Assembly (NCBI GenBank): GCA_025450755.1
Contig: JANWLR010000042.1
Location: 81,141 to 145,140, forward strand
DNA from: Sphingomicrobium sp.
GTDB lineage: Bacteria; Pseudomonadota; Alphaproteobacteria; Sphingomonadales; Sphingomonadaceae
Reading direction: 5' to 3'
DNA: 64,000 bases
In this document: in pieces, positions 25,624 through 34,702 of the stretch
Layout: each line of letters starts with the position of its first letter
How positions within the stretch are numbered: position 1 is the stretch's first letter
Position numbers and translations under genes: made by a program
Notes under the pieces: model-generated
The model's input: only the letters and a program-made list of their open reading frames with translations
The model's database searches: none
What the model was told of the DNA's origin: nothing

Positions 25624-26697
25624 TCAGTCGAACAGCTTCGCGAAGCGCCGCTTCTCGCGGTTGCGCCACGCGCCGCGATGCCAGGCATCGCTGGCCAGCA
25701 GCGGCAGCACGCTAGTCGCTTCGGCGAACACCATCTGCTCCATCGCGGTCGAAACCTTGCCCCAGCTCGCCGCCTCCTGGAGCGTCGAGGAAGAGCAGGC
25801 GCCATCGCGTACATCTGCGACGGTGATCTGCACGGCATATTTGTGCACCTCGACGTCGTCGTGGCCGAGGATTTCGGCGCAAACCACAGTGTCCTGAGTG
25901 AAGTTCTTCGGGACTCCGCCGCCGATCATCAGCAGGCCGGTGGTGCCCGCCTTGATCTTGATGTCGGTCAGCTCGCGGAAATCGGCGATGCTGTCGAGCG
26001 TCATGTAATGGCCACCGCGCTTCATCGCGTCGACTTGGTGCTTGACGAGCCCGAACCCCGCCGAGCTGTCAGTGAAGGCCGGGCAGAAGATCGGAACGTC
26101 ATTCTCGTATGCGAGCTGCACGAGGCTGCCCTGCTTCTTCGCATTGCTCTCGCTCAGCCACTTGCCCATTTCGCGGATGAAGGCGCGGCTGGAGTAGGGG
26201 CGCGGCTCGAGACTGTCGGCGATCAGGCCGATCATATGGTCGCAGTCCTGCAGCTGCTCCTCGTCGATATAGGTGTCGTAGATGCGATCGATGTAGAGCG
26301 ACCGCAGTGTATCATCGTCAGGGATTTCATTGGCTTGGTAGTGTTTGTGGCCAAGCGCTTCGAAGAAATCCATGTCGACGACCGTGGCGCCAGTGGCAAC
26401 GATCGCGTCGACCATGTTCGACCGTACCAGTTCCGCATAGACATCCATGCAGCCGCCGGCTGACGTCGAGCCGGCGATGACGAGGATGATCGAACAGCTC
26501 TGGTCCTCGATCATCGTGTTGTAGATCTTGGTCGCTCGACTAAGGTCGCGGCTCGTGAAGCTCATCTTCCCCATCGCGTCGAGAATCGGCCGGGCGTCGA
26601 ACTTTGTGATGTCGATATGCTCGACCGGTGTCGACAGCAGCTCGGACTTGCGCGTGTCGTTGACCGCGGACCGGTCGATCAGCTCTTCAGTCGTCAT
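25624..26697 (-). CDS. Deoxyhypusine synthase-family protein, probable homospermidine synthase
   Basis: DHS-like fold signatures (LVIAGSTSAGGCMDVYAELVRSNMVDAIVATGATVVDMDFFEALGH) and conserved SWGK catalytic Lys context (EAASWGKVSTAMEQMVFAEATSVLPLL). Confidence 0.85.
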   Translation of the reverse strand: MTTEELIDRSAVNDTRKSELLSTPVEHIDITKFDARPILDAMGKMSFTSRDLSRATKIYNTMIEDQSCSIILVIAGSTSAGGCMDVYAELVRSNMVDAIVATGATVVDMDFFEALGHKHYQANEIPDDDTLRSLYIDRIYDTYIDEEQLQDCDHMIGLIADSLEPRPYSSRAFIREMGKWLSESNAKKQGSLVQLAYENDVPIFCPAFTDSSAGFGLVKHQVDAMKRGGHYMTLDSIADFRELTDIKIKAGTTGLLMIGGGVPKNFTQDTVVCAEILGHDDVEVHKYAVQITVADVRDGACSSSTLQEAASWGKVSTAMEQMVFAEATSVLPLLASDAWHRGAWRNREKRRFAKLFD

Positions 26698-26827: not shown

Positions 26828-28057
26828 CTAGAATTTCACGATGTTCGAGCGTCGCGGGGTCTTGGCGCCGTAAAGGCTAGCCATCGGCTCGTCCTCGACG
26901 ACGACCGAATCGACCACCCCGAAACCGTTGAACTGGGTGCGCATTGCGCAGCCGTAGGCGCCGAGCATTCCAATCTCGATATAGTCGCCCCATGCGACGT
27001 CACTCGGAAGCTCGAACGGGCCGGCCATTCGGTCGAGGTCGTCGCAGGTAGGCCCATAAAAGCTGAACTTCATCGGCCGTACGTGCGATTGCGTGTCGCG
27101 AATTAGCCGCACCGGATAGCGCCAACCGATATGAGCGGCGTCGAACAGCGCACCGTAGGCACCATCGTTGATGTAAAGCTCATCGCCGCGGCGCTTCTCG
27201 ACGCGAACGAGGACGCTCGCATATTCGGCACAGAGTGCGCGGCCAGGCTCGCACCAAAGTTCAGCGGAATAACTAATCGGTAGCGCCTCGAAGGCCTGGT
27301 GAATGACCGCGAAATAGGTTTCGAGCGGCGGCGGCTCCATGCCGGGATAGGAAGAGGGAAAACCCCCTCCCACATCAACGATATCGACCGTCACGGCCGC
27401 GCCGATGATGGCGTCGCGAACGAGAGTCATGGCCTCGGCGAACGCAGCCGGCGTCATGGCCTGACTACCGACGTGGAAACAGATGCCCAGGGCATCCGCC
27501 GCCTGGCGAGCCGCCATCAACAGGCTGCTCACGTCACTTGGTTCAGCGCCGAACTTCGACGCGAGGCTGAGCTTTGCATGGTCGGAGCTCACCCGGATCC
27601 GCACGAGCAGGTTGAGGTCGCTTGCAGCGACGCCGTCCTTGGAGGTTGCGCGGACGATCTTCTCGAGCTCCTGGATAGTGTCCAGGCTGAAGGTCTTCAC
27701 GCCATGGTCGAAATAGGCCTCGGCAATGGCTTCCTCGGCCTTCACCGGGTGCATCAAGCAGAGGATGGCTTCCGGAAGCACCTCGTGAACGAGGCGCACT
27801 TCGCCGATGGAGGCAACATCATAATGGGTAACGCCTTCCTCCCACAGGATCCGCAGCAGGTCGGCCGAGGGGTTCGCCTTGACCGCATAGAGCGAACGTC
27901 CCGGGAACTTCTCAACGAAGAAGCGGGCGGCGCGGCGCGCGGCATGCGGGCGCAGCAGTGTGACCGGTTGGACCGGACGCATCTTGGCGATAGCGGCAGC
28001 CCCCCGGCTGCCGGACGGGGCGGACGCTAGCCCCAGCGCGCGATGATGCTTGTGCAA
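26828..28057 (-). CDS. Group III/IV PLP-dependent decarboxylase (ornithine/lysine decarboxylase)
   Basis: FPGRSLYAVKANPSADLLRILWEEGVTHYDVASIGE, WCEPGRALCAEYASV, SFYGPTCDDLDRM. TTG start at 28057 with GGAGG SD 9 nt upstream. Confidence 0.92.
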   Translation of the reverse strand: MHKHHRALGLASAPSGSRGAAAIAKMRPVQPVTLLRPHAARRAARFFVEKFPGRSLYAVKANPSADLLRILWEEGVTHYDVASIGEVRLVHEVLPEAILCLMHPVKAEEAIAEAYFDHGVKTFSLDTIQELEKIVRATSKDGVAASDLNLLVRIRVSSDHAKLSLASKFGAEPSDVSSLLMAARQAADALGICFHVGSQAMTPAAFAEAMTLVRDAIIGAAVTVDIVDVGGGFPSSYPGMEPPPLETYFAVIHQAFEALPISYSAELWCEPGRALCAEYASVLVRVEKRRGDELYINDGAYGALFDAAHIGWRYPVRLIRDTQSHVRPMKFSFYGPTCDDLDRMAGPFELPSDVAWGDYIEIGMLGAYGCAMRTQFNGFGVVDSVVVEDEPMASLYGAKTPRRSNIVKF

Positions 28058-28062
28058 CTCAA

Positions 28063-28132
28063 GGGACCTCCAACAGGTACGTTTCAACAAAGAGCTGCCT
28101 TGCGGTTGGAAGTCCCATGGGGCAGCGGTTGC
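28063..28132 (-). ncRNA. Candidate speF-type cis-regulatory RNA in the decarboxylase 5' leader
   Basis: mRNA sense: GCTGCC(28126-28121)/GGCAGC(28099-28094) stem; loop GGGACTTCCAA(28116-28106) complementary to TTGGAGGTCCC(28073-28063), which holds the SD. Confidence 0.6.
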
Positions 28133-28280
28133 GCGATATATGTGTGGCGATTCCTGCTGTAAAGATTCTTTGCCCGAGAGCTAAAGATTCGGTGACCGTA
28201 TGTCGCTGATCTGCAACGGCTAATCGAAAAGGTGAAATATCAACGACTTACCAAAATGGCCTAAAGTATCGCTGAACGAC

Positions 28281-29204
28281 GTGGTCGAAGCAGCGGCTCG
28301 AATCGATGGATTCGTTCAACGAACTCCGCTGATCGAAAGCAATGTCCTGGGGCAGCGAGTCTGGCTGAAATGCGAATGCCTCCAGACCGGCGGCGCGTTC
28401 AAGTTGCGGGGTGCGACCAACCGGCTGCTCCAGCTCTCCCCTAAAGAGCGCGAGAGGGGCGTCGTCGCTTTCTCGTCGGGCAATCACGCTCGCGGCGTTG
28501 CGATCGCTGCCAAGCGGCTCGGTATCCGGGCAGTGATCGTCATGCCCGCCGATGCGCCGCAGGTGAAGGTCGACGGCACGCGAGCGGAAGGCGCCGAGAT
28601 CGTCTTCTACGACCGCCGGACCGAAAGCCGGGAGGAGATTGCCGCCCGAATCGCTTCCGAAAGCGGTGCGACGGTGGTGCCGAGCTTCGATGATCCGGCA
28701 ATAGTCGCCGGGCAGGGCACTGCGGGGCTCGAAATCGTGGAGCAACTGGGCCGTTGCCCGACAAGGATTGTCATTCCGTGCGGCGGCGGCGGGCTGGCGT
28801 CCGGGATCGCACTCGCAGTGCCCACTGCCGAAATTGTCATCGTCGAGCCCGAAGGATGGGACGACATGGGCCGCTCGCTCGAGCGCGGCGAGATCGTTCC
28901 GGTTGCTCCAGACGCGCCTGATACCTTCTGCGATGCGATCATGACTCCGCGCGTCTCGCCCATAACCTACGGAATTCTTCGCGACCGCAATGCCAAAGCG
29001 TTGGCAGTCAGCGACGCCCAGGTGGCTCAAGCGATCCGCTATGCTTGGGACAAGCACAAGTTGGTCGTCGAACCCGGCGCTTCTGTCGGTCTTGCAGCCT
29101 TGCTCGCAAGAAAGCTCGAGCCGATGGACGATACGATAGTGGTGCTGTCAGGCGGGAACATCGATCCGGCGCTTCATGCCCGGATCATCAGCGACCCGGC
29201 CTAG
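28281..29204 (+). CDS. Threonine/serine dehydratase, fold-type II PLP enzyme
   Basis: KCECLQTGGAFKLRGATNRL PLP-lysine motif; VIPCGGGGLASGIAL; FSSGNHARGVA. GTG start. Confidence 0.9.
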   Translation: MVEAAARIDGFVQRTPLIESNVLGQRVWLKCECLQTGGAFKLRGATNRLLQLSPKERERGVVAFSSGNHARGVAIAAKRLGIRAVIVMPADAPQVKVDGTRAEGAEIVFYDRRTESREEIAARIASESGATVVPSFDDPAIVAGQGTAGLEIVEQLGRCPTRIVIPCGGGGLASGIALAVPTAEIVIVEPEGWDDMGRSLERGEIVPVAPDAPDTFCDAIMTPRVSPITYGILRDRNAKALAVSDAQVAQAIRYAWDKHKLVVEPGASVGLAALLARKLEPMDDTIVVLSGGNIDPALHARIISDPA

Positions 29205-34595: not shown

Positions 34596-34690
34596 CGCCG
34601 GAAGTCGGCGGACGGCGCTGTCGCCAACCTGGTCAGGTCCGGAAGGAAGCAGCCAAAACGATTTCGTGCCGGGTCGTCGGCTTCCACCGC
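34596..34690 (+). ncRNA. ffs: Signal recognition particle RNA (4.5S type)
   Basis: CTGGTCAGGTCCGGAAGGAAGCAGCC signature, flanking complementarity ggaagtcggcg/cgtcggcttcc, position just upstream of dnaX. Confidence 0.9.
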
Positions 34691-34702
34691 TCGCCATTGG
34701 CG

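Follow-up and report, generated by a model that had tools for sequence, protein, structure and literature searches.

An odc1 leader with tandem starts and an overlapping uORF precedes a Sphingomicrobium ornithine decarboxylase gene and has a putative diverged counterpart in Caulobacterales

Introduction

The odc1 (uORF-25-1) motif (Brewer et al. 2021, RNA Biol 18:2417; PMC8632094) is a leader of alphaproteobacterial ornithine decarboxylase genes in which the RBS lies in the right shoulder of a stem, P1, and which further comprises a pseudoknot, two tandem UUG codons 2 nt apart, and an 11-aa uORF that overlaps the gene. When lacZ fusions of the Sphingomonas echinoides element were assayed in E. 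coli, both starts were used, with the uORF fusion expressed about 3-fold above the main-ORF fusion, and start-codon mutations largely abolished expression (PMC8632094). Conserved leader bases were required mainly for the main ORF: mutations M4 to M6 abolished its expression, and M4 and M5 spared the uORF (PMC8632094). The only response of the reporter was a difference between rich and minimal medium, and metabolite binding by a riboswitch was raised as one possibility (PMC8632094). The main text of that paper reports no variation in uORF length, describes the starts as always UUG, and does not mention Caulobacter. Our literature search for the motif returned no other paper, and we found no mention of the element in the papers that we consulted on structured RNAs or on Caulobacter genome architecture.

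The enteric SpeFL/speF leader likewise places a short ORF in front of an ornithine decarboxylase gene; its ORF does not overlap the gene and its output is at the level of transcription. The Salmonella speF leader has reportedly been the subject of published work. In alphaproteobacteria, the speF leader RF00518 precedes a COG0019-type decarboxylase, is much longer than odc1 elements, with more than 150 nt between its conserved part and the start codon, and in its Agrobacterium representative bound none of the compounds tested, namely ornithine, putrescine, and spermidine (Corbino et al. 2005; PMC1273637). Finally, polyamines in E. coli enhance translation of messages that have an obscured or distant Shine-Dalgarno sequence (SD) and UUG or GUG starts (PMC4405209). 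These messages form a functional class rather than an RNA family, and the sections of that source drawn on here describe no competing overlapping start.

Results

We analyzed a 64,000-nt stretch of Sphingomicrobium sp. DNA (the window), which carries a decarboxylase gene on its minus strand, followed by a gene with a deoxyhypusine-synthase fold (Table 1). Its Pfam matches and its named homologues, from Sphingomonas, Sphingobium, Sphingopyxis, and relatives, mark the first gene as the alphaproteobacterial ornithine decarboxylase that odc1 precedes. An ORF of the decarboxylase family was found in all 201 family genomes searched (E ≤ 0.001); a few weak matches, at about 1e-16, are likely paralogues. 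The downstream gene scores 563 bits against a cut-off of 500 with NF002699 (1,9-bis(guanidino)-5-aza-nonane synthase) and probably acts in polyamine synthesis of the homospermidine type, on a substrate predicted from sequence. A divergent gene of the threonine/serine (hydroxyaspartate) ammonia-lyase family lies at 28281-29204 (+), its best NCBIfam model scoring below cut-off, and a bacterial small SRP RNA lies at 34597-34691 (+) (RF00169, 66 bits).

Table 1. Features of the decarboxylase locus in window coordinates
Feature	Position	Strand	Basis
Ornithine decarboxylase-type PLP enzyme, 409 aa	26828..28057	-	Pfam PF02784 (1.3e-33), PF00278 (1.3e-6)
Downstream gene, deoxyhypusine-synthase fold	25624..26697	-	PF01916 (1.5e-89)
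-35 element TTTACA	28158..28163	-	Conservation across leaders
-10 element TATATC	28135..28140	-	Conservation across leaders
Helix A, 5' strand GCUGCC (pseudoknot helix of odc1)	28121..28126	-	Paired in 43/43 distinct element types
Helix A, 3' strand GGCAGC	28094..28099	-	Paired in 43/43 distinct element types
Helix B, 5' strand GGGACUUCCAAC (P1 of odc1)	28105..28116	-	Sequence, conservation, strand-swap test
Helix B, 3' strand GUUGGAGGUCCC, includes SD GGAGG	28063..28074	-	Sequence, conservation, strand-swap test
Shine-Dalgarno GGAGG	28067..28071	-	Sequence; 4 nt before UUG1, 9 nt before UUG2
UUG1, uORF start codon	28060..28062	-	Start codon in 110/110 leaders
UUG2, decarboxylase start codon	28055..28057	-	Conserved; used in published reporter
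uORF, 11 codons MSCTSIIARWG, then TAG (28029-28027)	28027..28062	-	Out of frame inside decarboxylase gene

The literature settles the identity of the element: it is a member of the odc1 motif, with which it agrees in every testable feature and from which it differs in nothing essential. Helix B, which contains GGAGG in its 3' shoulder, corresponds to P1, and helix A (GCUGCC/GGCAGC) to the pseudoknot between 5' end and loop. The starts are arranged as UUG-AG-UUG (28062-28055), with exactly two nucleotides between them and five bases from one to the next, and the uORF that begins at UUG1 encodes 11 residues. The element is thus already known in kind; its extension to other loci, described below, is new. 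The first-pass annotation of this DNA had seen the pseudoknot and had missed what is most distinctive here, namely UUG1 and the overlapping 11-codon uORF; it had also missed the 2021 odc1 publication.

Both helices were evaluated in 101 parsed leaders, which represent 43 distinct element types. The stem that had been read from GCTGCC (28126-28121) and GGCAGC (28099-28094) is present at those minus-strand positions and is helix A; all six of its positions pair in every type, and its position 3 is U-A in 40 types and A-U in 3. The second helix had been drawn as 11 pairs between GGGACTTCCAA (28116-28106) and TTGGAGGTCCC (28073-28063). These segments are present and pair as described, but the helix reaches 12 bp, with one G-U, since it is extended by a C28105-G28074 pair. 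Positions 1 to 9 of helix B form standard pairs in 41 of the 43 types (the other 2 have an A-G mismatch at position 6), position 7 is U-A, C-G, or U-G, and position 10 is A-U or U-A. The covariation check suggested for sphingomonad leaders therefore gave compensatory changes in both helices, U-A to A-U in helix A and U-A to C-G or U-G and A-U to U-A in helix B, although these rest on few positions because most helix positions never vary.

Chance pairing was assessed with dinucleotide shuffles of the leader, in which the SD segment found a pairing run of at least 12 in 0.2% and of at least 11 in 1.2%. Cognate strands of helix B averaged -16.03 kcal/mol against -15.57 kcal/mol for swapped strands, and 0.1% of shuffles did as well. 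Conservation is stronger evidence for the helices than the chance-pairing statistics. The segment CCGCAA between the helices is nearly invariant, and helix A begins 64 nt upstream of UUG1 in the window, close to the median of 65 across leaders. In a sister family of the same order (two leaders), helix A is replaced by UUGCCGA/UCGGCAA.

Conservation and compensatory changes across Sphingomonadaceae thus support the proposal that the decarboxylase SD is hidden by pairing with a loop of this leader. Nothing that had been named as counting against it turned up: the helices are conserved and covary, the start at 28057 is conserved, and the predicted transcription start lies outside 28057-28100. A repeat of CAACCGC, pointed out earlier, does exist and is incidental, as reading of the loci showed its 5' copy to be unconserved and only (A)CCGC of the second copy to be conserved. 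A 19-codon ORF spanning the element (MGLPTARQLFVETYLLEVP*, 28118-28059, minus strand) was set aside as a chance ORF because single-base indels break its frame in relatives.

Some leaders depart from the standard form. In three, a conserved, inverted-repeat-rich segment of about 60 nt is inserted downstream of helix A and ahead of the SD. In five others, the CCCCAUGGGG segment in helix A is enlarged to a hairpin (CCCCUG-N5-CAGGGG, for example). This hairpin and helix B overlap at the GGG of the latter, which suggests that a local fold competes. An alternative pairing of GCUGCCCC with GGGGCUAGC in the coding region could form in most leaders with Gly at codon 9 (71 in all) and is absent in the other 39; we leave it as an idea.

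In 75 of the 101 leaders, TTTACA is found no more than 60 nt ahead of helix A, and in 69 it lies 17 nt from the -10 element. TATATC is the commonest -10 hexamer (39/75), and 7 to 9 nt separate the -10 element from helix A in 70 of the 75. Scanning the window with a strict promoter consensus gave no match, so this assignment rests on conservation. It implies a predicted transcription start at about 28133-28127, and with TTTACA-N17-TATATC lying 7 to 9 nt ahead of helix A the transcript should begin at the pseudoknot. Transcription attenuation was rejected: the window leader has no terminator-like site, and control therefore most likely acts at translation. In this, and in having a uORF that overlaps the gene and shares its SD, the element differs from SpeFL.

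TTG at 28057 (UUG2), proposed earlier as the decarboxylase start, held up: this position is TTG in 109 and ATG in 1 of 110 leaders, and UUG1 is TTG in 108, GTG in 1, and ATG in 1, with a double AUG in one leader. SD-to-start spacing is the same in these 110 leaders and in most of a wider set of 77 loci. A stop stands at uORF codon 12 in 110/110 leaders, counts that come from related sequences and hence are not independent events. It is the first stop in 108; the other 2 stop at codon 10. The first stops are TAG in 104, TGA in 4, and TAA in 2. Keeping the stop at codon 12 accounts for the rare codon at enzyme codon 10, which is CTA, GTA, TTA, or ATA in 107/110, codons that in the same genes make up 0.3 to 2% of usage for their amino acid. 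When synonymous codons were resampled, about 4% of sequences (about 0.04 per sequence) had codon 12 as their first stop, and across the uORF frame of 30 full genes no other position had a stop in at least 20. Four codon types and three stop types all retain the same stop, which is visibly under selection through rare enzyme codons. The encoded peptide varies at position 10 (W in 67, R in 17, and G in 9 of 110) and is G or L at position 11. A -1 frameshift from the uORF into the enzyme was also considered and rejected; by eye, no slippery heptamer is common to both sequence clades.

A near-identical element precedes the decarboxylase in 30/30 of the closest loci and in 79/79 further leaders that could be read through (one more, ending at a contig edge, was left out). 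A covariance model built from 49 leaders matched 293 of 301 family genomes. Almost every one of these has a single match and three have two, and the matches compared all adjoin the decarboxylase. One genus lacks the element in 5/5 sampled genomes, and the three of these that were tested have only a distant decarboxylase-like match; the other three model-negative genomes are incomplete assemblies. Outside Sphingomonadaceae, a 299-genome sample of the phylum gave two weak matches, one of them in a Caulobacteraceae decarboxylase leader.

We then read the leaders of named homologues, where the layout SD-N4-start1-N2-start2 occurs in 67 of 77 loci. It is kept, within otherwise different sequences, in Caulobacteraceae (Brevundimonas, Caulobacter, and Phenylobacterium), and also in Maricaulaceae/Hyphomonadaceae-like genomes (Maricaulis, Hyphobacterium, Hirschia, and Parvularcula). 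The start pairs in the 67 loci are GTG/TTG (39), TTG/TTG (13, sphingomonads), GTG/GTG (12), and ATG/ATG (3). In Caulobacteraceae the overlapping uORF has 31 codons: 23 of 25 genomes have TAG at codon 32, where 0.24 would be expected. At enzyme codon 30, all 49 of 49 valines are GTA, a codon that serves about 1% of valines. Across the stretch that the uORF covers (codons 2-31), synonymous variation in the enzyme gene is down to 46% of what is expected, compared with 78 to 94% for codons 32-90, although codons 90-110 are also reduced (66%). The Caulobacteraceae peptide retains a PWTWS.SG core.

The leader of these Caulobacteraceae genes has a constant CCGGCG/CGCCGG stem. Cognate strands of its candidate helix B, GACCC(C)/GGGGUU, pair no better than swapped ones, so structural homology of the SD-pairing helix is not supported. 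Judged by its layout, the Caulobacterales leader may be a diverged counterpart of the odc1 element and is the new, testable part of this work. Compared with odc1 as published, the related loci here have uORFs of 9 codons (2/110), 6 codons (the sister family), and 31 codons (Caulobacteraceae), and start pairs GUG/UUG, GUG/GUG, and AUG/AUG. Since the main text of the odc1 paper reports constant length, UUG throughout, and no Caulobacter, the Caulobacteraceae version appears to be undescribed there.

Discussion

We conclude that a cis-acting odc1 RNA very probably controls translation initiation of the decarboxylase through an SD-hiding pseudoknot and two competing starts. The transcript would start just before helix A and fold into a pseudoknot in which helix A joins the 5' end to the loop and helix B sequesters the SD. 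Once helix B opened, a ribosome positioned by the single SD could start either at UUG1, at a distance of 4 nt, or at UUG2, at 9 nt; the former would yield an 11-residue peptide and no enzyme, the latter the enzyme. Enzyme output would then be set by the balance of folded RNA, UUG1, and UUG2. The helices, their covariation, the starts, and the stop were seen in the genomes here, and use of the starts comes from the S. echinoides reporter in E. coli.

A pathway product, a polyamine, might shift this balance through the RNA fold or through initiation. We infer such feedback from the decarboxylase, from its neighbor with a deoxyhypusine-synthase fold, and from the polyamine-sensitive E. coli messages, which, as far as that source describes them, share UUG or GUG starts and an obscured SD with the window leader. 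Pathway products are nonetheless an unsafe guess at a ligand, since the non-homologous Agrobacterium speF leader bound none of the three tested.

The main rival to fold-based control is that the uORF peptide is the sensor, with a metabolite stalling the ribosome within the uORF or at its end, and the stalled ribosome blocking or exposing UUG2. E. coli SpeFL and the mammalian AdoMetDC uORF are precedents for such stalling. A ribosome stalled at termination would lie about 25 nt from UUG2, near enough to occlude it. In favor of this reading are the fixed position of the stop, after 11 codons in Sphingomonadaceae and, independently, after 31 in Caulobacteraceae, and in the latter the low synonymous variation over the uORF and the retained peptide core. 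The Sphingomonadaceae peptide, however, is not invariant at positions 10 and 11, uORF lengths and sequences differ between orders, and the second reduced stretch in Caulobacteraceae makes the synonymous contrast less than unique. With fixed lengths speaking for peptide or termination sensing and variable peptide sequence against it, we regard it as unlikely.

Another explanation could be that there is no switch: the leader would be a constitutive attenuator whose uORF stop merely ends wasteful out-of-frame translation early. Modest published expression from both starts and a uORF:main ratio that is similar in rich and minimal media (PMC8632094) speak for this view. A weak SD alone, however, would suffice for a low level, and starts kept in 110/110 leaders with a stop fixed by rare codons exceed mere damping; moreover, both fusions rose in minimal medium (PMC8632094). 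We consider this explanation quite unlikely.

Alternatively, a protein, ribosomal or other RNA-binding, might bind the conserved loop and stabilize the SD-hiding fold. There is established precedent in the pseudoknotted SD operators to which ribosomal proteins bind, and the nearly invariant CCGCAA would suit a protein or ligand site. Such a binder is nevertheless improbable, given that the element was found only at the decarboxylase wherever checked and is lost together with it, and that no candidate protein gene is linked.

That the element is a speF leader, as the first-pass annotation had supposed from the presence of a decarboxylase gene in an alphaproteobacterium, is refuted by the sequence and can be discarded with near certainty: RF00518 gave no match at E ≤ 10 either in window 27800-28500, the model search that had been suggested, or, with stricter filters, in the whole genome; the sequence and architecture differ, with helix A so close to UUG1 rather than more than 150 nt from the start; and at two speF loci that we read, the RF00518 element precedes another COG0019-type decarboxylase, a different paralogue.

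For odc1 itself, the window is an ordinary member of an orphan control element. None of the Rfam 15 families matched the leader credibly; Rfam-based annotation pipelines would therefore overlook it and may set the start of the enzyme in the wrong place. Beyond the text of the odc1 paper, the analysis adds two handles, the selected stop in the uORF frame and the distinct Caulobacteraceae version, which make a polyamine-dependent choice between two starts directly testable; Caulobacter is a standard laboratory organism for which ribosome-profiling and start-mapping data have been published (PMC4117421). We tentatively suggest, as a possibility that we hold to be somewhat doubtful, that the tandem-start uORF is an old translational switch on ornithine decarboxylase in Sphingomonadales and Caulobacterales, wider than odc1, in which uORF initiation or termination itself senses polyamines. 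If so, RNA sequence would have diverged while SD-N4-start1-N2-start2 and a lineage-fixed uORF length (11 in Sphingomonadaceae, 31 in Caulobacteraceae) were kept, and the switch would be the bacterial equivalent of the uORF and frameshift switches, controlled by polyamines, in the polyamine genes of eukaryotes.

Further variants were seen around the starts in these relatives. Many Caulobacteraceae leaders (L120, L206-L234, and L270-L318) could form a 6-bp hairpin, UACGUG-AAUUGCA-CACGUA, around both starts, a hairpin that is absent from some Caulobacteraceae leaders with GUG starts. Four Maricaulales-like leaders have GUG-N2-AUG dual starts, with an 11-codon uORF ending in TAG (L254) or TGA (L248 and L249), or a stop at codon 3 (L247). 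Six Hyphomonadaceae-like leaders (L319, L321, L323, L325, L329, and L330) lack the dual start and have AUG followed by GGAC-NNN-GUCC, a possible hairpin across codons 1 to 4 with a variable loop codon.
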